DNA from: Nitrospirota bacterium
Lineage (GTDB): Bacteria; Nitrospirota; JACRHJ01
Direction: 5' to 3'
DNA length: 64,000 nucleotides
Assembly (NCBI GenBank): GCA_021784575.1
Contig: JAJYHX010000002.1
Coordinates: 248,001 to 312,000, forward strand
How positions within the stretch are numbered: the stretch's first letter is position 1; each line of letters starts with the position of its first letter. The translations under genes were made by a program, and so were the position numbers. Below, piece by piece: positions 1,712 to 36,508 of the stretch. Below the pieces are notes generated by a model. That model worked only from the letters and a program-made list of their open reading frames with translations, had not been told where the DNA came from and searched no databases.

Positions 1712-3484
1712 TCAGCTTTCCGACGCGCCTATCTTGCCGGCCTTCTGAAGGGCCTTGTCGAAAATGTCGGCGGCCCTGGCCTTGTCGTGCTTCGCGCAGG
1801 CGGAGGCGATATTCGCCAGCAGGTCGGCGGAGACGGCATTGTCGTTCACGGAAGAGGCGGACTTAACCGCCATGTCCCAGACCATCGGGGAGCGGTAATC
1901 GCCCCTGGCCGCGAAATCCGCCGCAATCTCGGAGAGGTAGCCGACCTTCATGTTGTCGCCGCCTTCCAGTTTCGCCGCGTAATAGATGAACTGGTTCGGG
2001 TCAAGCCTGCAAAGCGCAACCGCAGTCTTCCACTGGAGCGCGCCGCTCTTCGCCGTGGCGGCAGCCGACGCGGCCCTTTTGTAAAGCTTTATCGCGGCGG
2101 CGGGGTCGGTCTGCTCCTTGAGCTTCGCGGCTCCGTAAAGCGCGCGCGCCTGCTCGTAGACCGCTTCGGCGCCGGCGAATCTCGGCACCTTTATCTTATC
2201 GAGGGCCTCCTTGAACGCCTTGTCCCCGTCCTTTGAGGCCGCAACCGCGAGCGACGCGTATATCGCGTCCTTTATTGCCGGATATTTCTCGTCCCCGGCC
2301 AGCTCCCCGGCCTTTTTCGGGTCGGAACTGACCAGCGAATCCGCCACAAGCTCAAGCGCCTTCGCCCGGTCGTACGGGTCGGATATGGACTGCGCAACAT
2401 CGATAACGCCGGACATGTCGGCGGCGTTGCCGGCGGCGGTGGCGGCCTTCATCATGGCCGCGAACTTCGCGTCGTTATGCTCTATCTTCGCGGCATAGGC
2501 GTTTGCATCGGCCGGGTTTGCGCCTGCAAGGGCCATGGCGACGTCGCTCATCGCGTAAGACCTGGCGTACGGCTGCGGTATAGAGGATGCCGTTTCTTCC
2601 GCCGTCGAAAACATCATCCGGGACTTTGCGGCGTCGGAATCCTTCAGCGCGAGGGCGGCATTTGCGAGCACCCTGGCGGAATATGCCATAAGGTTCCCCT
2701 TTTCCTTTGCGAGGACTTCAGCCTTTACTTCGGGAGGGGTGGAATCGGTAATGAGGTCGCTCGTGGGCTGCATGTTCAACACGGCATCCGCAGCATCGCC
2801 CGCGGCGGAAAACGCCGAATCCGCATCGCCGGAGCCGTCCGCCTTCGCCGTCCTGCCTATCTCCATGTATGCCCAGGCCTTTATCCTTGGGTCGGAGATT
2901 TTCGCGGCGGCATCCATGCCCGCCTTGAAATCAAGCGCGGCAAGCGCGGCGGAAACTCCGCGAAGGTCGAGGTCGCGGTATTTCGGGTCCGGTATGGACT
3001 CTGCGTCCTGCGCGGCCTGGTTAAGGATTCCAATCGCCTTTGCCTTGTCGAGCTTCGCTATGCCTTCGGCGATGGAGCGTATTACCCAGACGCGGGTGGA
3101 GGCGTTCGTAATTCTGTCTACAAGCGGGTCGATGGCCTCGTGGTCCTTGGGCCCCCAGCCGCTCGACATCCGGCGCAACCCCGCCGCGTATGTCTGGTTG
3201 GACTGCGCCCGGACCTGCGTCGCAAGCTTCAGGGCGGAATCGAGGGTATCGGACGCGCCGGGGACTCCCTGCATTGCCATCGCCATCCCGAGCTTCCCGA
3301 GCTCGAACGCCTTGAGGTTCATGTTGTCAAGGGTGTCCGCGGCCTTGCTCGCCTGAGAGACTGCGGCGGCCACCACCTTGGGGTCTGCCGTGCCGGTCTC
3401 CTTTTGCCCTTTATACTCGGAACAGGAGGAAAGGAAGGCCAGCAGCGAGACAGCAAATATTATTGCGAATATTCTTTTGAGCAT
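1712..3484 (-). CDS. Large helical-repeat lipoprotein of unknown function
   Basis: A 590-residue lipoprotein: hydrophobic signal peptide ending in the lipobox LSSC with the lipidated cysteine at residue 21. The rest is Ala/Asp/Lys-rich and almost entirely helical, built from irregular ~35-40 residue repeats of the type 'DPxxRAKALxxVAxxLxxxDxxKA', resembling TPR/HEAT-like solenoids. No cysteines for heme or Fe-S binding follow the lipobox. It lies directly upstream of dsrE and 11 bases after the membrane cytochrome gene, so it is embedded in the respiratory operon. A periplasm-facing scaffold for the cytochrome/Rieske complex is plausible but is inference. I do not recognise a named family. 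Confidence 0.7.
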   Translation of the reverse strand: MLKRIFAIIFAVSLLAFLSSCSEYKGQKETGTADPKVVAAAVSQASKAADTLDNMNLKAFELGKLGMAMAMQGVPGASDTLDSALKLATQVRAQSNQTYAAGLRRMSSGWGPKDHEAIDPLVDRITNASTRVWVIRSIAEGIAKLDKAKAIGILNQAAQDAESIPDPKYRDLDLRGVSAALAALDFKAGMDAAAKISDPRIKAWAYMEIGRTAKADGSGDADSAFSAAGDAADAVLNMQPTSDLITDSTPPEVKAEVLAKEKGNLMAYSARVLANAALALKDSDAAKSRMMFSTAEETASSIPQPYARSYAMSDVAMALAGANPADANAYAAKIEHNDAKFAAMMKAATAAGNAADMSGVIDVAQSISDPYDRAKALELVADSLVSSDPKKAGELAGDEKYPAIKDAIYASLAVAASKDGDKAFKEALDKIKVPRFAGAEAVYEQARALYGAAKLKEQTDPAAAIKLYKRAASAAATAKSGALQWKTAVALCRLDPNQFIYYAAKLEGGDNMKVGYLSEIAADFAARGDYRSPMVWDMAVKSASSVNDNAVSADLLANIASACAKHDKARAADIFDKALQKAGKIGASES

Positions 3485-3495
3485 CCTTAGACCTC

Positions 3496-4035
3496 TTATT
3501 CCTTTACGGTTTTCTTAAGCCCCAGGAAGAAAAGCAGGGAGACAATCATCACCACGAGCAGACCAAGCCCTATCACCTTTTCCAGCTTGTAGTCGTCGCG
3601 GAGCTTGTTTATCTTCTCGTAGATCTCTCCCATACCCTTTTTAATTTTCAGGTTCGGCCCGGCGAAGGAGCTTATGGAGTCCACGTCCTTCGTCCTGAGG
3701 TCGGCATACTTTATGTTGTATGTGACCAGGTCCTCCCGCATATACTCCGGGTATCTCATGGTCTGTTCTTCGAGGTCGGTCAGGAACTGGTTGTATTTCA
3801 GGAGCCTGCTTTCCGTGAAATACTGCCCTTCCTTAATCTGGAAAAGCCCCGGGCAGAGCGTGCTCTTCTGCTCCTGGTAAATGCTCCTGTCCCACTTCAT
3901 CAGGCTCCCGAAGGAGGCAATCTCGCCCGCGGTATGGCACTCGGCGCAGTAGTTGTCTTCCGCCGCCGCGTAAGCGGGGATAAAAAGCACGACGAGAGCC
4001 GCTATTAAAAGAACTCCTCTTACTCTCCCTGTCAC
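3496..4035 (-). CDS. Membrane-anchored monoheme cytochrome c
   Basis: A GTG start at 4035 is supported by AGGAG seven bases upstream. The 179-residue product has an N-terminal signal segment, one heme c site (CAECH, residues 30-34), a long charged helical region, and a single C-terminal membrane helix (about residues 153-174) ending in KKTVKE. The topology places the heme outside the cytoplasm, tethered at both ends if the signal is uncleaved. It follows the cytochrome b/subunit IV genes, the position of cytochrome f or c1 in bc-type complexes, although its sequence is unlike either. Likely the electron acceptor of the adjacent Rieske protein; that role is inferred from context. Confidence 0.75.
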   Translation of the reverse strand: MTGRVRGVLLIAALVVLFIPAYAAAEDNYCAECHTAGEIASFGSLMKWDRSIYQEQKSTLCPGLFQIKEGQYFTESRLLKYNQFLTDLEEQTMRYPEYMREDLVTYNIKYADLRTKDVDSISSFAGPNLKIKKGMGEIYEKINKLRDDYKLEKVIGLGLLVVMIVSLLFFLGLKKTVKE

Positions 4036-4053
4036 GGTATACTCCTTTTTTAT

Positions 4054-4485
4054 TTAAGATAAGTGTCCCGCGATTGTAAGGCCGACGAAAATCACGACAC
4101 CGGCGATGATGGTGGCCTTGCCGAGCGTTGACCGATTCTTCCAGCCCCTTGACTGCCCCCTGTCAAGGAATGGCAGCAGGAAAAGCCCCGTTATCGCGAG
4201 CACCTGCACCCCCATGCCTATCAGTTCCGCCACGTTTCCGAAGATGGTGGTCGGGAACATCTTCAGCGTCTGGTACGCCGCGAGGAAGTACCATTCCGGC
4301 TTCACGCCGAGCGGGGTGTTGGTGGTGTCCGCAGGCACCTCCGGCGGCAGGAAAAGACGCGGCACGAAAAAGGCTATCAGGAAGAATATCCCTATTACGA
4401 CGGAGACTATTATCCCCTTGTCTATTACATCGTTCGGCCAGAAAGGTTCGAGCTCGCCCTTCCAGTTGTCTTTATTATATTTCAT
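4054..4485 (-). CDS. Cytochrome b subunit IV (PetD-like C-terminal half of cytochrome b)
   Basis: A 143-residue membrane protein with three predicted helices and the diagnostic PEWYF motif (residues about 63-67: VKPEWYFLAAYQ), which forms part of the quinol-oxidation site in b6f/bc complexes. It corresponds to the C-terminal portion of cytochrome b, encoded separately from the heme-carrying N-terminal half (4687-5343), as in b6f-type organisation. A ~200-base spacer with no recognisable gene separates the two, unusually long for this pair and worth noting. Function: menaquinol or other quinol oxidation in the membrane. Confidence 0.88.
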   Translation of the reverse strand: MKYNKDNWKGELEPFWPNDVIDKGIIVSVVIGIFFLIAFFVPRLFLPPEVPADTTNTPLGVKPEWYFLAAYQTLKMFPTTIFGNVAELIGMGVQVLAITGLFLLPFLDRGQSRGWKNRSTLGKATIIAGVVIFVGLTIAGHLS

Positions 4486-4686
4486 CCCCCTATCCTCTCG
4501 TTATACTTTCGGTTCCGCCATGCAGAAGCGCATAACGCCGGCCTCATTTATAACACGCGCATGATCCTTTAACATCACCCGTCCACCTGCCCAAACTGGT
4601 CTCGCCGAGATATTTGCCGATTCAGGGATGTCCCGCCCGCCTGTCCCGGCTCCCGCACGGCGGCCCCGGTCTCGCCCGCCTGACGG

Positions 4687-5343
4687 CTATAACTGCTCCT
4701 GAATGCCGGACCTTCTTATCATCATGAAATGGAAGGCCATGAGAAGCGACATGATTACCGGAAGCGCCAGGTGCAGGGCGAAGAACCTGCCGAGCGTGGC
4801 GCCGGAGACCGCGTCCGCGCCGCGTATAACCTTCATCATTATCGGCCCGACGACGGGCACGACGGAGAACGAGGTCGTAAGGACCGTGACCGCCCAGTAG
4901 GACAGCTGCGTCCAGGGAAGCAGATAGCCGGAGATTCCCATCATCATCGTGAGCATAAGGAGGAAGAAGCCGGATATCCAGTGAAACTCCCTGGGGGCTT
5001 TGTACGCGCCGGTCATTATAACCTTAAGCATGTGTATCATCACGAGCAGTATCATTACGTTCGCGCCGATGGCGTGCAGGCGCCTGAAGAGCCAGCCGAA
5101 ATAGACGCCGTTGTCTATAAAGACCACGCTGGAAAAGGCCTCCTTGGGGGACGGCCTGTAATACAGCAGCAGGAAGGTGCCGGTGAGCACCTGGATTATG
5201 AAGAGTATGAGGGACATCCCCCCGAAGCAGCCGAAGAACTCGTACCACTTTTTTATCTTGGGCGCTTTCTTGGAGAACACCTCGTCGTCCAGCAGCTCGG
5301 AGATCCCCGTGCGGGAATCGAACCATTCAATCACCTTGCTCAT
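4687..5343 (-). CDS. Cytochrome b6-type diheme subunit
   Basis: The 218-residue product has four hydrophobic helices and two histidine pairs that bind the b hemes (in RRLHAIG and MIHML on one side, FFALHLALP and AFHFMM on the other), plus GYLLPW after the second helix. The start at 5343 is preferred to a GTG at 5352 because GGAGG sits eight bases before it and it directly follows the Rieske stop. It is the N-terminal half of cytochrome b in a split b6/subunit IV arrangement. With the Rieske protein (upstream) and PetD-like subunit (downstream) it forms a quinol-oxidising complex inside the dsr operon. Confidence 0.9.
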   Translation of the reverse strand: MSKVIEWFDSRTGISELLDDEVFSKKAPKIKKWYEFFGCFGGMSLILFIIQVLTGTFLLLYYRPSPKEAFSSVVFIDNGVYFGWLFRRLHAIGANVMILLVMIHMLKVIMTGAYKAPREFHWISGFFLLMLTMMMGISGYLLPWTQLSYWAVTVLTTSFSVVPVVGPIMMKVIRGADAVSGATLGRFFALHLALPVIMSLLMAFHFMMIRRSGIQEQL

Positions 5344-5344
5344 C

Positions 5345-5830
5345 CTATGCACCTCCGACTATCAATTTGGAGCCGACAATCTTATACGCGAGATGCTCGA
5401 GAGGCGCGGGAGGAGGGCCGCCCTTGTTTACCCCGTGCTTGTTGTACCAGCCGTCGTGGCACGGGCACCTGAAAATCTGCTTCGCCGGTTCCCATTTTAC
5501 AGTGCAGCCGAGGTGGGTGCACTTCAGGGATATAGCCTCGATCCCGCTCTTCCGGTTGAAGACCATGAACGAGTATCCGGCGTAAACGCCCCTGGCGGAC
5601 CCGCCTTTTGGTATGTCGTCGAGGTTCAGTATCGCAGGCTCCGGCTTGCCTCTCTGGACGGGCGTGAAGGACGCCAGGAGCGGAACGCCTACGAGGCCCG
5701 CGCCCAGCGCGCCTATGCATCCGGCGAAAGCGCCCAGGAAAGCTCGCCTTCCGGCCATGAATTTCCCGCCGTGGTGCTCTTCAGGCGCCGCCCCGGCGCC
5801 CGCTTTAGCGGTATCTTTGTTTTCTTCCAT
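5345..5830 (-). CDS. Rieske [2Fe-2S] protein of the dsr-linked bc complex
   Basis: A 161-residue Rieske protein. An N-terminal acidic cytosolic tail is followed by GRRAFLGAF (twin-arginine-like) and one membrane helix (about residues 31-55). Cluster ligands are in CTHLGC (C104, H106) and CPCHDGW (C122, H125); C109 and C124 provide the usual disulfide, and a GGPPPAPL loop follows. It accepts one electron from quinol at cytochrome b and passes it to a c-type cytochrome outside the membrane. Its stop is adjacent to the cytochrome b start, implying translational coupling. The family is certain; its partner cytochrome is inferred to be one of the two neighbouring heme proteins. Confidence 0.92.
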   Translation of the reverse strand: MEENKDTAKAGAGAAPEEHHGGKFMAGRRAFLGAFAGCIGALGAGLVGVPLLASFTPVQRGKPEPAILNLDDIPKGGSARGVYAGYSFMVFNRKSGIEAISLKCTHLGCTVKWEPAKQIFRCPCHDGWYNKHGVNKGGPPPAPLEHLAYKIVGSKLIVGGA

Positions 5831-5846
5831 GATTTGAGCTCCCCCT

Positions 5847-6152
5847 TTATTCGTATCCTGACACCCTTTTGACGCCTACATAATCATGGCAGTTGTTGCA
5901 CGAGGTGTTCGCGTCGTGACACAGCATACACTCGTGCTTGTTGTAGTCGCCTCTTTCAAGAATGTCCATGTGGTGCGTTTTCCAGTAATCCACGGGCTGA
6001 TGGTATTCCGGGGAGAGGATTCCCGGAGGAAGCTTGAGCGCAAGCGGCCCCGTGCCCTTCAGCTCCGGCTTGGTGACGCGCTCGTTGGAGCATCCGGCGG
6101 CGATTAAGGCCAGGAGGGATATGAACAGCAGGACGAGTATCGGTTTCCTCAT
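5847..6152 (-). CDS. Small diheme cytochrome c lipoprotein
   Basis: A 101-residue lipoprotein: signal peptide with the lipobox AAGC (lipidated C21), then a proline-rich linker and two closely spaced heme c sites, CMLCH (75-79) and CNNCH (85-89), with HH at 60-61 as possible axial ligands. It abuts dsrK (6153) and the Rieske gene. In DsrMKJOP complexes the c-type cytochrome is DsrJ, a triheme protein; this shorter diheme protein occupies an equivalent genomic place but I see no clear DsrJ similarity. Likely periplasmic electron shuttle between the DsrMK part and the Rieske part, by inference. Confidence 0.8.
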   Translation of the reverse strand: MRKPILVLLFISLLALIAAGCSNERVTKPELKGTGPLALKLPPGILSPEYHQPVDYWKTHHMDILERGDYNKHECMLCHDANTSCNNCHDYVGVKRVSGYE

Positions 6153-7655
6153 TTATATCCCCTCCTTTCCGCCAAGGACTATCGCGCGGCTCACGAGCTG
6201 ATGGACACCTCCGACTTCCTCCATCTCATACCCGTAATACGGGAAGACCTTCGTGAACTGTGCCTTGCATATTGCGCATATGAGCGCGAAGAAGTTTGCT
6301 CCGTGGCTGTCCTTGACGGCTTTATACGCCTGCATTCTCGGCATGACGCCTTTTATGCGAAGGTCGATTATCTCGTCCGCGAGGAGTCCTCCCCCGGCGC
6401 CGCAGCAGAATGTCTTTTCGCGGATGGTGTCGGGGTGCATATCTACGAACTTGTTGCAAGTGGCCCTGATTATAGCCCTCGGTATTTCGAACTGGCCTCC
6501 GGGGCTGTTGCCCATCCTCGACGCGCGGGCGACGTTGCAGGAGTCGTGGAATGTTACTACGAAATCGTCGTTGGCCGTCTTGTCGAGCTTCAGCGCGCCC
6601 CTGTTTATGAGGTCGTACGTAAACTCGCAGATATGCTGCGGGGCGGGATATTTCGGGTCGAGTGAATCGAACGGCCCGATAAGGGTGTTCCAGAAGCTGT
6701 AGGCTACACGCCAGGCATGGCCGCATTCGCCGTGCACAAGTCTCTTGGGCTTCAGTTCGTTTATGGCCACCTTTATCCTGCTCGCGATCTTCTGCATGTG
6801 CTCGTAGTTTCCGTTGAACATGCCGAAGTTGCCGGCTTCGGAGGCGTATGACGAGAGCGTCCAGGAAATCCCGGCCTGGTGGAATACCTTCGCGTATCCT
6901 GCGAGCGACTCGACGTGCGGCGTGGCGAAGAAATCAGCCGAAGGTGTTATAAGCAGAACGTCCGCTCCCTTGACGTCCATCGGGAATTTTACCGGGACGC
7001 CGGTCTGCTCCTTGACATCCTCCTCCATGAAGTCGAGCGTGCTGCGGATGGCGGGCCCGGGCATTCCGAGGTTGTTGCCTATGGTAATAGCCTTGTTGAT
7101 TGTCTGGAGAGGATATTTCGCGCCGAGGCCGACGGTGTCCATCATCTCCCTGGCGGCCATGGTTATCTCCGCCGTGTCGATGCCGTACGGGCAGAAGAGC
7201 GAACAGCGCCTGCACTCCGTGCACTGGTAGAAGTAGGTATACCATTCCTCCAGGACTTCCTTCGTCAGGTCCTCGGCCTCCGCCAGCTTGCCCAATACCT
7301 TGCCTGCGGTGGTGAAGTAGCGGCGGTAGACCTTTCGCAGGAGTTCCGCCCTCGCCACCGGCATGTTGCGCGGATCCTTCGTGCTGAGGTAAAAATGGCA
7401 TTTGTCGGTACACGCGCCGCACTTGACGCAGATGTCCATGTAGACCTTGAGTGAGCGATACTTCTTGAGAAGCTCGGCGAACTTGGCGACCGCCTTCTCC
7501 TTCCAGTCCGGGACAAGCTCCGTGGGGAAGCCCAGGTCGGTCATGTCCTTCGCCGGCGCGTTATGGCTTTTTACAGCCGCCGCGGCGTCTTCTTTTAGGC
7601 CGGGTATCGTTATCTCACCGGTTAACTCGGGGACCTCAACCTTTACCTTTGCCAA
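6153..7655 (-). CDS. dsrK: DsrK/HdrD-like heterodisulfide-reductase-type Fe-S subunit
   Basis: A 500-residue cytoplasmic iron-sulfur protein. Two ferredoxin-type [4Fe-4S] sites appear (C76/C79/C82/C86 and C145/C148/C151/C155), followed by the C-terminal CCG module: HDSCNVAR, then FCCGAGGG, then CAICK, which together bind the noncubane catalytic cluster of HdrD/DsrK. A conserved HGECGHAW precedes it. DsrK, with membrane DsrM, reduces the trisulfide or disulfide of DsrC using electrons from quinol. It lies 13 bases after dsrM and its product partner dsrC is the first gene of the operon. Naming as DsrK rather than generic HdrD rests on the dsrC/dsrM/dsrEFH context. Confidence 0.9.
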   Translation of the reverse strand: MAKVKVEVPELTGEITIPGLKEDAAAAVKSHNAPAKDMTDLGFPTELVPDWKEKAVAKFAELLKKYRSLKVYMDICVKCGACTDKCHFYLSTKDPRNMPVARAELLRKVYRRYFTTAGKVLGKLAEAEDLTKEVLEEWYTYFYQCTECRRCSLFCPYGIDTAEITMAAREMMDTVGLGAKYPLQTINKAITIGNNLGMPGPAIRSTLDFMEEDVKEQTGVPVKFPMDVKGADVLLITPSADFFATPHVESLAGYAKVFHQAGISWTLSSYASEAGNFGMFNGNYEHMQKIASRIKVAINELKPKRLVHGECGHAWRVAYSFWNTLIGPFDSLDPKYPAPQHICEFTYDLINRGALKLDKTANDDFVVTFHDSCNVARASRMGNSPGGQFEIPRAIIRATCNKFVDMHPDTIREKTFCCGAGGGLLADEIIDLRIKGVMPRMQAYKAVKDSHGANFFALICAICKAQFTKVFPYYGYEMEEVGGVHQLVSRAIVLGGKEGI

Positions 7656-7668
7656 TTTAAAATCTCCT

Positions 7669-8394
7669 TTAAGTAAGGTTCGGCGACCAGGGGTTTACGT
7701 GCCTTCTCTCCCTCGGGTTATCCGCCTGATTCCTCGTCGGGCTGAAGAATATTCCCGGCGCATGAACCAGCTTGCTGTACGGGAAGTACGCCAGAAGTAT
7801 CATCACCAAGGTGAAGTGCACGAGAAAAACGGGGTCCGTCGGCACGGCGGAGAAATTAAAGGTGGCAAGCCCGTACACGAAGCCTTTTATATCCACCATG
7901 AACGGCCTCTCGTAGAACTTCATCATCAGGCCGGTACCGGCTATAAAGAAAATCAGGGTAAGGGCGAAGTAATCCGCCAGGGAGGATATGAACACGGTCC
8001 TGTCCACAGTGGTGCGCCTCATAAGGAGGTACAGCACCGCTATCGGGAGGACTATTCCGGCGACTATGCCGATGTATTGCAGCTTCATATCCCAGGCCGG
8101 CAGGGGATAAAGGAAATAACGCAGGTGCCGGAGCACAACAAAAAGAAAGGCCCAGTGAAAGACCACGCCGCCCAGCCATGTCCATTTGTTGCTCCTGTAG
8201 AGGCTCCTGAACAACAACACTTCGCTTAAGACGCGGACGGCTGCGCCGAAAGAAGTCGTGGGGGCTGGCGTAGTGGGTATCTTAAGGGGGGACGGGGTCT
8301 TGGCATATACCATTATCTTGCAAAGGATGCCGAAGACGAAGACAGCCGCCGCTCCATAGGCCATCAGGGAAAAGATTATCGTAAGAAATTGCAT
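7669..8394 (-). CDS. dsrM: DsrM-like cytochrome b (NarI-type) membrane subunit
   Basis: A 241-residue membrane protein with about six hydrophobic segments, of the NarI/DsrM family that binds two b hemes and exchanges electrons with menaquinol. Histidines in suitable helix positions are visible (VFHWAFLFVVLRHLRY and LVHFTLVMILLAYFPYSKLVH). The C-terminal HAPGIFFSPTRNQ is typical of NarI-like ends. It pairs with DsrK (next gene, 13-base gap). It is shorter than the longest DsrM proteins but normal for the NarI-like core. The partner subunits DsrJ/O/P of the full transmembrane complex are not found next to it. Confidence 0.87.
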   Translation of the reverse strand: MQFLTIIFSLMAYGAAAVFVFGILCKIMVYAKTPSPLKIPTTPAPTTSFGAAVRVLSEVLLFRSLYRSNKWTWLGGVVFHWAFLFVVLRHLRYFLYPLPAWDMKLQYIGIVAGIVLPIAVLYLLMRRTTVDRTVFISSLADYFALTLIFFIAGTGLMMKFYERPFMVDIKGFVYGLATFNFSAVPTDPVFLVHFTLVMILLAYFPYSKLVHAPGIFFSPTRNQADNPRERRHVNPWSPNLT

Positions 8395-8428
8395 CGATCT
8401 CCTTCCTTCAAGACCGGTTGACGCTCAT

Positions 8429-8457
8429 CCCGTCCCGCTCCGTCAGAGCGGGACGGG
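8429..8457 (-). promoter_or_regulatory. Intercistronic stem-loop between dsrC and dsrM
   Basis: A perfect 12-bp inverted repeat (8429-8440 with 8446-8457, 5-base loop) lies in the 89-base gap between dsrC and dsrM. No T-run follows on either strand, so it is not a simple intrinsic terminator. Such hairpins often protect the upstream cistron's mRNA from 3' decay, which would let dsrC be made in excess over the membrane complex; that use is inferred. Confidence 0.6.
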
Positions 8458-8483
8458 ACCATCAAAGACCGCTTCCGATTTGG

Positions 8484-8819
8484 CTATACGCAGCCGGTCG
8501 GCTTGGGAAGCCCGGCGATTTTGCAGGCCTGTTTCGCCGGCCCGGCGGGATAGAGCGAGTAGAGATACTTCGTGTTGCCCTTCTCCGGCCCGAGCTTCGC
8601 GCCAATGGCCTTGACCAGTATCTTGATCATCGGGGCTATCTTGTATTCGGCATAGTAATCCCTGAGGAAATTTACCACTTCCCAGTGCGCCTCGGTCATC
8701 TCGACTTCTTCCTGCTCCGCAAGGAAACCGGCGACGTCCTCGTTCCAGTCGTTCAGATTAATCAGATATCCGTCCTCGTCAACCTCGTAAGATTTGCCTT
8801 TGAATTCAATCGTCGGCAT
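8484..8819 (-). CDS. dsrC: DsrC sulfur carrier with both redox cysteines
   Basis: A 111-residue protein of the DsrC/TusE/RspA family. The flexible C-terminal arm ends ACKIAGLPKPTGCV: C99 and the penultimate C110 are both present, 11 residues apart, which is the signature of true DsrC (TusE keeps only the last cysteine). The residues PMIKILVKAIG and GNTKYLYSLYP match the conserved core. DsrC carries sulfite-derived sulfur as a trisulfide or persulfide between DsrAB and DsrMK. It is the first gene of the long operon, preceded by a strong candidate promoter at 9028-9057 and an AGGAGG ribosome binding site. dsrAB must lie elsewhere if present. Confidence 0.95.
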   Translation of the reverse strand: MPTIEFKGKSYEVDEDGYLINLNDWNEDVAGFLAEQEEVEMTEAHWEVVNFLRDYYAEYKIAPMIKILVKAIGAKLGPEKGNTKYLYSLYPAGPAKQACKIAGLPKPTGCV

Positions 8820-9108: not shown

Positions 9109-10503
9109 TTAATAACTGCCTTTAACACCATCGATAGAAGTTTTTCTTATCAAATCCACAAATGCCGGGGCCCAGCCGGGCGTGCCGAGGGAATGAATAT
9201 GCGTATAAGCGGCCAGTATGTTTTTATATACCATACCGTCGCGGGTCCCATCCACTCCCCTCCCCCGCAGCACCTGGAATGCGAATCCGGCGTCCATGCC
9301 GATCCTCTCTGCGCTGGAATGATGGAACTCGTGCGCCCTTATCTCCTGGGCGAATACGGGCCATGAACCCTCCCCCGTGGGGCGTAGCAGGACATAGCCG
9401 TGTCCGACAGGCCGTTTGGACATCTTTATGGTATACGGGAAGACCTCGGCCATGCGGCACATAAGCCCCTCCCATACAATGCCGGAGCAGAGATACATAA
9501 GCCCGCCGCACTCGGCGTAAACCGGCATCCCGGCGGCGGTGGCGTCCTTTACGGCCTTTCTCATGGAGGCGTTCTTTTCGAGGGCTTCCATGTGGACCTC
9601 CGGGAACCCTCCTCCTATATACAGCGCGTCCACTTCCGGCAGGGTCTCGTCGCTGAGCGGCGAAAACGGAATCAACTCCGCCCCGGCCGCACGCAGGGCC
9701 TCCAGGTTCTCCGGGTAATAGAACGTAAACGCCCTGTCCATGGCGACGCCAATCCGGACAACCGGCTCCGGAACGACCGTCTCCTTCAGGCTTATCTCCG
9801 GAAGCGGCGCGGCCGACGAGGCTATTTCGGTTATCCTGTCGAGGTCGAGGTTCTCGGCTATTATGCTCCGCATCTCGGAGATTACCGGAAGAAGCCCTTC
9901 ATCCTCCCTCAGCGGCACAAGGCCCAGGTGCCGCATACGGATTCCCATCTCCTCCCTGTGCGGCAAGGCCCCGAGCACCGGAACGCCGCAGAAACGCTCC
10001 ACGGCCTCACGTAGTTTCTTTTCGTGCCTCGAACCCTTTACCTTGTTTAGAATAATCCCGGCTATTTCCGTATCCGGCTCGAAGCTGCGAAAGCCGTTCA
10101 CGAGCGGCGCAATCCCCCTGGTCATGCCGTAGCAGTCTATTACAAGCAGGACGGGAGATTTAAGGAGCCTCGCAAGGCCGGCGGTGGAGTCTGTCCCCTC
10201 CATGTCCATCCCGTCATAGAGGCCCATGTTGCCCTCTATTATGGATATGTCCGCGCCTTTCGCCCGCCTCTGAAAGCTTTCCAGTATCTTTCCGGCCCCC
10301 ATAATGTAGAAGTCGAGATTATAGGAAGTCCTGCCCGTCGCGGCCTCGTGCCACATCGGGTCTATGAAGTCCGGCCCTTTCTTGAACGGCTGGACCTTAA
10401 GCCCCCTGGCCGAGAGCGCGGCAGATAGCCCTATGGCGACGGTGCTTTTGCCGGAGCTCCTGTGCGGTGCGGATATTGTAAGCCTGGGGATGGAAATATC
10501 CAT
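9109..10503 (-). CDS. cbiA: CbiA/DsrN-family glutamine-dependent amidase
   Basis: A 464-residue cobyrinate a,c-diamide synthase family protein: N-terminal P-loop-like ATPase (SAPHRSSGKSTVAIG) and C-terminal class I glutamine amidotransferase domain with nucleophile cysteine in YAECGGLMYL. CbiA amidates two acetate side chains of cobyrinate for B12; the close homolog DsrN amidates siroheme for dissimilatory sulfite reductase. Its position directly upstream of dsrC on the same strand makes DsrN-type activity plausible, but the sequence alone does not decide. The start at 10503 is chosen over the ATG at 10512 because a TATAAT box overlaps the upstream ATG and no Shine-Dalgarno is present, suggesting a leaderless message. 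Confidence 0.85.
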   Translation of the reverse strand: MDISIPRLTISAPHRSSGKSTVAIGLSAALSARGLKVQPFKKGPDFIDPMWHEAATGRTSYNLDFYIMGAGKILESFQRRAKGADISIIEGNMGLYDGMDMEGTDSTAGLARLLKSPVLLVIDCYGMTRGIAPLVNGFRSFEPDTEIAGIILNKVKGSRHEKKLREAVERFCGVPVLGALPHREEMGIRMRHLGLVPLREDEGLLPVISEMRSIIAENLDLDRITEIASSAAPLPEISLKETVVPEPVVRIGVAMDRAFTFYYPENLEALRAAGAELIPFSPLSDETLPEVDALYIGGGFPEVHMEALEKNASMRKAVKDATAAGMPVYAECGGLMYLCSGIVWEGLMCRMAEVFPYTIKMSKRPVGHGYVLLRPTGEGSWPVFAQEIRAHEFHHSSAERIGMDAGFAFQVLRGRGVDGTRDGMVYKNILAAYTHIHSLGTPGWAPAFVDLIRKTSIDGVKGSY

Positions 10504-10510
10504 GACATGC

Positions 10511-10540
10511 ATTATAACTTTGGTTGACAGCGCCTGTCCA
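10511..10540 (-). promoter_or_regulatory. Candidate promoter of the CbiA/DsrN-like gene
   Basis: On the minus strand TGGACA (10535-10540), an 18-base spacer and a perfect TATAAT (10511-10516) end seven bases before the ATG at 10503. Transcription would start at or next to the start codon. It interleaves with the plus-strand promoter at 10524-10552. Confidence 0.5.
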
Positions 10541-25133: not shown

Positions 25134-25781
25134 ATGAGCGAGCGCCATGCACTTTCGGGATTGTTGACGGCGGTTTTGATTCTCTGCGCGGCTTCAACCA
25201 CGGTCTTTGCCACACCGGCCCAGGCGGCGGTGGACACCAGCTTCTCCTGCTATCAATGCCATTCCAAGAAAGTGATAACGCCCTGGATAGCCGAGACATG
25301 GCTCGAAAGCGCCCATGCGAAGGCCGGCGTAAAATGCCCGAACTGCCACGGGAACCACGATGCCGGCTTCGATTCGCCGAAGTTCATCGCCCACCCCGGC
25401 CAGGACGTGTGCATGAAATGTCATCCGATAAGCGTCAAGGAGACTCTCGCCGGGGCGCACGCCGGGAAGGTGAAATGCACCTCGTGCCATCCCTGGCATA
25501 CGTTCTCGCTCGATGTCGCCCGAGACCCGGAGATATGCCGGACATGCCACAACTCCGAGCACGCAAAGAGCTATTTCCGCTCGAAGATGTACGTGGTATA
25601 CAAGGTCATGGGGCCGAAATACAGCGCCACCTGCCAGAGATGCCACATGCCGGAGGGAGACCACGACGTAAGCGGCACGGTATCCTCTAAAGAGCTTATG
25701 CTGAAGGTGTGCAACCGATGCCATTCGGCGTCGTTCGCGGGCAAGGTGCTCTCTAAAGGAGAGCTCAAGACGCACTGGTAA
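25134..25781 (+). CDS. Heptaheme c-type cytochrome
   Basis: A 215-residue exported protein with a signal peptide and seven CXXCH heme sites: CYQCH, CPNCH, CMKCH, CTSCH, CRTCH, CQRCH and CNRCH, spread over residues 39-200. Extra histidines (SAHAKAG, GNHDAG, GAHAGK, EHAKS, GDHD) can supply the distal ligands for bis-His hemes. The spacing and the SAHA/GNH pattern resemble the multiheme fold of hydroxylamine-oxidoreductase-like and octaheme cytochromes, but with one heme fewer. GGAGG lies upstream of the ATG. Probably a periplasmic electron conduit or a reductase; no substrate can be named. Confidence 0.88.
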   Translation: MSERHALSGLLTAVLILCAASTTVFATPAQAAVDTSFSCYQCHSKKVITPWIAETWLESAHAKAGVKCPNCHGNHDAGFDSPKFIAHPGQDVCMKCHPISVKETLAGAHAGKVKCTSCHPWHTFSLDVARDPEICRTCHNSEHAKSYFRSKMYVVYKVMGPKYSATCQRCHMPEGDHDVSGTVSSKELMLKVCNRCHSASFAGKVLSKGELKTHW

Positions 25782-34986: not shown

Positions 34987-35484
34987 ATGAGAATGGAACC
35001 GGCGGAACTCGTGCAGGCATCAGGGTCAGACAAGACCCGGCGCGATTTCCTGAAAACCGGCATACTGGCCGTCTCCGGCATAATATCCGCCGCCGCAGTC
35101 TATCCCATTATCAGACTTGCATTGCACACGACGCCGCCCGCGCCGCCGGTATTCGTGGACGCGGTATTGCTGTCGGACATGCCTGAGGCGGGCGTCAGGA
35201 GGATAGACCTGTCCCTTGAAAAGGACGGAAGGCCGGACGCGCGCGTGTTTGTCAAGAGAACCCCGGACGGCAATATCATCGCTCTTTCCGCGGTATGCTC
35301 GCACTTGGGCTGTATCGTGAATTACGACAGGATTAAAGACCAGTTCGTCTGCCCGTGCCACGGCGGGAGATACGACGGGAACGGAAAGAACATCTCCGGC
35401 CCTCCGCCTGCGCCGCTTACAAGGCTCCCCGTGCGCATCGCCGGGGCCTACATACAGGTGGGGATAAGGAAGCCGCCCGTATGA
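34987..35484 (+). CDS. Rieske [2Fe-2S] protein of the second bc-type complex
   Basis: A 165-residue Rieske protein with a twin-arginine-like N-terminus (RRDFLKTG), one membrane helix, and cluster motifs CSHLGC and CPCHGGRYD followed by SGPPPAPLTRLPV. It differs clearly from the Rieske protein at 5345. Its stop overlaps the cytochrome b start (ATGA). Confidence 0.93.
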   Translation: MRMEPAELVQASGSDKTRRDFLKTGILAVSGIISAAAVYPIIRLALHTTPPAPPVFVDAVLLSDMPEAGVRRIDLSLEKDGRPDARVFVKRTPDGNIIALSAVCSHLGCIVNYDRIKDQFVCPCHGGRYDGNGKNISGPPPAPLTRLPVRIAGAYIQVGIRKPPV

Positions 35485-36128
35485 GCAATCCCTTTTCCAT
35501 AATCGACAGCCGCCTTAACTTGAGCCGCCACTACCGCCGGATATTCGAGCGCCCGCTCCCGGAAGGCGTCACATATTTCTACTGCCTGGGCGGCATGGCG
35601 CTCTTCTTTCTCATAGTCCTCACGTTCACCGGCGTCGTCCTGTCGTTTTACTATATCCCCTCCGCGTCGGAGGCATACCATTCCATCCGTTTCATAGACA
35701 GCAAACTACCCGGCGGCTGGCTGATGCGCGCGCTGCACGTCTGGGCGGCCTCGGGGATGGTCGCGGCGGTGATGGCGCACATGCTCCGCGTATACATCAC
35801 CGGCTCGTATAAGCCGCCCAGGGAGCTCAACTGGGTCGTGGGCGCGACACTGTTCGTCCTGACGATGGCGTTCGGGTTCTCAGGCTATCTACTGCCGTGG
35901 GACCAGAAGGCATACTGGGCGACGACCGTCGGCACCGCCATGCCGTCAACTATTCCTCTTGTCGGCCATTTTATAATGCAACTCCTCCGGGGCGGGGACG
36001 ACGTATCCGGCATAACGCTTCTCCGGTTCTACGTGATGCACGTATACATACTCCCGCTCGTCTCGATATTTCTGCTCTGGGCGCACTTCCATATGATTCG
36101 CAGGCAGGGGATAAGCGGGGGATTGTGA
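35481..36128 (+). CDS. Cytochrome b6-type subunit of the second bc-type complex
   Basis: A 215-residue diheme cytochrome b N-terminal half: RALHVWAASGMV and VMAHMLRVYITG give one histidine on each of two helices, FYVMHVYILP and LWAHFHMIRRQG the others; GYLLPWDQKAYWATTV is the Qo-side signature. The start at 35481 is fixed by the ATGA overlap; an upstream in-frame extension overlaps the Rieske gene and is rejected. Confidence 0.93.
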   Translation: MSNPFSIIDSRLNLSRHYRRIFERPLPEGVTYFYCLGGMALFFLIVLTFTGVVLSFYYIPSASEAYHSIRFIDSKLPGGWLMRALHVWAASGMVAAVMAHMLRVYITGSYKPPRELNWVVGATLFVLTMAFGFSGYLLPWDQKAYWATTVGTAMPSTIPLVGHFIMQLLRGGDDVSGITLLRFYVMHVYILPLVSIFLLWAHFHMIRRQGISGGL

Positions 36129-36508
36129 TGGACAATAGGCTTAAGAAATTCTACCCGGATTACCTCTTTGAGATTCTTCTAGTCTGCCTCTTCGCGCTGG
36201 AGGGCGCGCTGTTGCTCTCGTATGTCTTCCCGCCGGTGACGGGCAGTCCGGTGGACTTCTCGCGCAACTTCCTTCCGCGCCCGGAGTGGTATTTCCTTGC
36301 GCTCTACCAGATGTTCAAATACTTCCCCGGGAACCTCGCGTTCATAGGCGTCGCGGTGATTCCGGCGGTGATTCTGTTCCTTGTCTTCGCGCTTCCGTTC
36401 CTCGAAAAGACGCATTCCAGAAGGCTTCGGGACAGGAAATTTTCCGCCGTCGCCGCGGCTATCCTTCTCGTATCCGCCGCCGTCCTGACCGTCCTGTCGT
36501 GTTTCTGA
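36128..36508 (+). CDS. Cytochrome b subunit IV-like protein of the second bc-type complex
   Basis: A 126-residue protein with three membrane helices and PRPEWYFLALYQMFKYFPG, the subunit IV Qo motif. It overlaps the cytochrome b stop as TGATG. No cytochrome c gene follows, so this three-gene complex must donate to a c-type cytochrome encoded elsewhere, possibly one of those in this window. Confidence 0.92.
   Translation: MDNRLKKFYPDYLFEILLVCLFALEGALLLSYVFPPVTGSPVDFSRNFLPRPEWYFLALYQMFKYFPGNLAFIGVAVIPAVILFLVFALPFLEKTHSRRLRDRKFSAVAAAILLVSAAVLTVLSCF

Follow-up and report, generated by a model that had tools for sequence, protein, structure and literature searches.

What is a Rieske/cytochrome b (bc) complex doing in a dsr operon of a Nitrospirota bacterium? 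The window, a stretch of 64,000 nucleotides (G000:C2:248001-312000), comes from a 2.11-Mb assembly of 14 contigs, 96.7% complete; the closest named relatives of the host genome are Nitrospirae MAGs. The eight genes listed in the earlier note, from dsrC to a monoheme cytochrome, are all present on the minus strand (3496-8819). The dsrC product (8484-8819; Pfam DsrC, 3.1e-47) has both redox cysteines, as claimed there, in a C-x10-C arrangement at residue 99. The dsrM gene (7669-8394) encodes a short form of 241 aa whose best NCBIfam family is DsrM, with 188 bits, below the cut-off of 300, and dsrK (6153-7655) scores 582 bits against a cut-off of 400. They are followed by genes for a diheme lipoprotein (5847-6152), a Rieske protein (5345-5830), a cytochrome b6-type subunit (4687-5343), subunit IV (4054-4485) and a monoheme cytochrome c (3496-4035). 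The latter has a CAECH motif and a hydrophobic C-terminus, read from the sequence as a membrane anchor, and yields no Pfam or NCBIfam match.

The spacers are 89 bases between dsrC and dsrM, 13 between dsrM and dsrK, 0 between dsrK and the diheme gene, 16 before the Rieske gene, about 1 before the cytochrome b gene (using the ATG at 5343), 201 between the latter and subunit IV, and 18 before the cytochrome c gene. The word "fused", used for this arrangement earlier, describes gene order and nothing more. The genes and their order stand, but the unit does not end with the eighth gene. It continues on the same strand with a lipoprotein of 590 aa (1712-3484), whose gene starts 11 bases after the cytochrome c gene, and with dsrE (1200-1640; true start probably downstream), dsrF (792-1148) and dsrH (477-773). 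The dsrE and dsrH assignments are based on NCBIfam TusD/DsrE and TusB/DsrH matches over the cut-offs, and that of dsrF on position and conservation. Beyond the window follow a HEAT-repeat gene, dsrA, dsrB, dsrD and a DsrL-2-like gene. The dsrD call relies on size, position and conservation, its product having no NCBIfam match. The DsrL-2-like product is a flavoprotein of 559 aa in which N- and C-terminal FeS regions and the YRR motif can be read, the combination that defines DsrL-2 (PMC7596348). On the other side, 289 bases upstream of dsrC, a cbiA-like gene (9109-10512, minus strand; Pfam CbiA and GATase_3) occupies the dsrN position. The 590-aa lipoprotein is kept in the three relatives described below; it has no Pfam match and no assigned function, is repeat-rich and faster evolving, and shows 41% identity to its counterpart in the sister genus.

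The diheme lipoprotein decides how much of DsrJOP is missing. Its alignment with DsrJ covers 94 columns (hhalign E 4.6e-14, score 83.7), and 40 block shuffles, with the two recognised heme blocks left intact, scored 33.8 at best. The HM..L and C..CH..C..CH.Y regions are retained; the CVE cysteine and the third heme of the triheme DsrJ are absent. Hence the protein, as judged from these alignments, is a shortened DsrJ homologue (DsrJ'), and what is missing is DsrO and DsrP rather than the whole of DsrJOP. The proposal that the bc complex had taken the place of DsrJ therefore fails. As in the DsrMKJOP systems, dsrK, a gene that matches dsrM best and a DsrJ homologue share an operon with dsrC; unlike them, the locus has no DsrO or DsrP, its DsrJ' is a diheme rather than a triheme protein, and a b6-type module comes next.

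This module is a predicted b6f-type quinol oxidase. The Rieske protein, recognised by Pfam, has the CTHLGC and CPCHDG motifs, kept in all four genomes with the operon; the cytochrome b subunit, with cytochrome b6 as the best PDB match (2.1e-54), has two pairs of heme-binding histidines and the cysteine of the heme ci site, and subunit IV (Pfam Cytochrom_B_C) has the PEWY motif. The split into b6 and subunit IV is that of the cytochrome b6f-type complexes; the differences are the dsr operon setting and the anchored monoheme cytochrome c, found at the locus instead of cytochrome f.

Uniqueness to one assembly would have spoken against the earlier note, but the gene order recurs in two congeneric genomes (L007 from G003, L009 from G022) and in a sister genus (L010 from G013), that is, in four genomes of two genera. 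The contigs of two other genomes, G031 and G039, end short of the bc region. Where computable, dN/dS of the dsr and bc genes is about 0.02-0.27, so by these estimates the operon genes are under purifying selection, and the arrangement is more than chance. The dsr-linked cytochrome b is 80-100% identical within the four genomes and at most 49% identical to any other among 396 Nitrospirota genomes. Among approximately 400 genomes sampled, bc genes adjoin dsrK in one Nitrospirota family only; neither the cytochrome b matches nor the DsrK-clade loci revealed the linkage elsewhere in the phylum, and the dsr loci of Magnetococcales and Thermoleophilia, sampled outside it by one DsrK scan of 36 loci, have no bc genes. 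The adjacency is a single evolutionary event, which weakens the case for a functional partnership. The two wide gaps noted earlier, 89 bases and about 200 bases, are real, but the latter is specific to this genome: in the relatives, cytochrome b and subunit IV are separated by 15, 66 and 86 bases. A regulatory element in the 201-base gap was rejected for this reason.

DsrP is the usual quinone partner of DsrMK. Genome-wide statements on its presence here rest on genome searches with a DsrP cut-off of 350 bits. None above the cut-off was found in this genome and five relatives, the six genomes of the family, whereas seven of nine comparison genomes have one. A dsrJOP set beside another dsrMK, the finding on which the earlier note would have given way, did not appear: no second dsrK was found in this genome. 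The Nitrospirota loci sampled from the reductive DsrK clade have J, O and P after dsrK in 16 cases out of 16 (in L109 DsrJ is seen in the alignment, and in L116 the contig stops within DsrP). Oxidative-clade Nitrospirota outside the family mostly have dsrC-M-K-J' with neither OP nor bc at the locus, and four checked genomes carry, at a site apart from dsrMK, a tetraheme-DsrO-DsrP triad whose DsrP exceeds the cut-off. Since these DsrMKJ' genomes lack O and P at the locus in the absence of bc, the bc module is an addition, and the loss of O and P at the locus is independent of it. The interpretation given in the earlier note is partly supported.

A rival reading is that a triad supplies OP function in trans, with bc irrelevant to Dsr. 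Contig C6 of this genome encodes a tetraheme cytochrome, a ferredoxin-like FeS protein resembling DsrO but below its cut-off, and NrfD (L006 7739-10268); the triad NrfD is present in all genomes of the family searched. However, this NrfD scores 27.7 bits, which rules it out as DsrP at the family cut-off, and close relatives of the triad are widespread among Nitrospirota, also where DsrMKJOP is present. We therefore regard this explanation as improbable, the least likely of those considered, although the persistence of the triad counts against a bc partner of DsrMK. The location away from dsrMK is shared with the dsrOhPh-tetrahaem locus of cable bacteria (PMC13047784); this family lacks the form of the triad with DsrP above the cut-off, which other Nitrospirota have. 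In another Nitrospirota genome (L144), two tetraheme-FeS-NrfD triads stand side by side and adjoin Rieske and cytochrome b genes.

An alternative with a tentative claim, clearly weaker than that of the reading we favour, is that the bc genes encode a respiratory quinol oxidase of the ordinary kind, which came to lie by dsrMK and is co-expressed under sulfur conditions with no dedicated electron path. Other DsrMKJ' Nitrospirota manage without bc; G227 has neither DsrP above the cut-off nor a dsr-linked bc, hence DsrMKJ' may need no partner. Besides the dsr-linked copy, this genome has two other cytochrome b genes, so nothing forces that copy to be reserved for Dsr. One of the two belongs to a second set of Rieske, cytochrome b6 and subunit IV genes away from dsr (34987-36508, plus strand); the other, with a third Rieske gene, encodes a cytochrome b of 440 aa with one CxxCH on contig C5 (L123 9416-11244), in the vicinity of genes resembling those for succinate dehydrogenase and succinyl-CoA synthetase. 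On the other hand, the zero-base and near-overlapping junctions, the conservation in two genera, the insertion of bc between dsrJ' and dsrEFH, and the lack of DsrP in the same family all speak against a chance neighbour.

Two trees bear on the direction of electron flow. The family DsrK is monophyletic (99/98) within the oxidative-type clade, alongside proteobacterial sulfur oxidizers. The dsrAB genes, whose type remained to be checked, lie in the same unit just outside the window, and the tree places DsrAB on the reductive side, with Nitrospirota and Actinomycetota sequences and apart from the proteobacterial oxidative type; as the trees include no named cultured reductive reference, the label also leans on dsrD and on PMC10504309. 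One published study describes clusters that combine oxidative-clade DsrK with dsrD and reductive-side DsrAB, in neighbourhoods that are MK-only or full MKJOP, and does not mention Rieske; our literature search found no paper joining DsrMK with a Rieske complex. The genome has aprA followed by a qmo-like set. Heme-copper oxidase above the cut-off and bd oxidase were not detected in this genome, 96.7% complete, so that absence is not proof; nor was nitrate reductase, the four molybdopterin enzymes being formate dehydrogenase-like or NuoG. For want of a sink, this argues against a bc partner of DsrMK. Heme motifs number 307 versus 69 in the reversed-pattern control, an excess of more than 200, and multiheme genes are clustered, hence cytochrome-based sinks or sources are possible. 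One seven-heme cytochrome c is encoded at 25134-25781 of the window.

The reading that we prefer, at roughly even chances, is that the dsr operon of one family took in a b6-type quinol:cytochrome c oxidoreductase as a putative quinone-to-periplasm partner of DsrMKJ' lacking DsrO and DsrP. It draws on the shared gene order, purifying selection, intact motifs, restriction of bc at dsrK to the family, monophyly of the family DsrK, absence of DsrP in six genomes and the heme-motif excess. DsrMK would carry out electron exchange of DsrC with menaquinone, and the b6-type complex would connect this quinone pool to cytochromes of the periplasm, namely the monoheme cytochrome c and perhaps DsrJ'. Net oxidative flow, from DsrC to quinone, cytochrome c and a further acceptor, would agree with DsrEFH, DsrL-2 and a DsrK of the oxidative type; flow may also run in the reductive direction. 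Coupling would probably proceed via the quinone pool rather than a fixed assembly. The interleaved gene order and the replaced-partner pattern may instead point to DsrMKJ' and the b6-type complex being physically joined in an assembly in which electrons pass directly between them, a conjecture that we consider unlikely, since quinone-pool coupling suffices. Equally doubtful is that such an assembly couples Rieske-site quinol oxidation directly to DsrC turnover, as a new type of sulfur-respiration complex.

The role of DsrJOP for DsrMK is unsettled. In this family DsrMK and a reduced DsrJ persist, DsrP goes undetected, and the same operon has gained a predicted quinol oxidase of a well-understood type. 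Such a lineage is a natural test of whether the role of OP is electron transfer from quinone to the periplasm.
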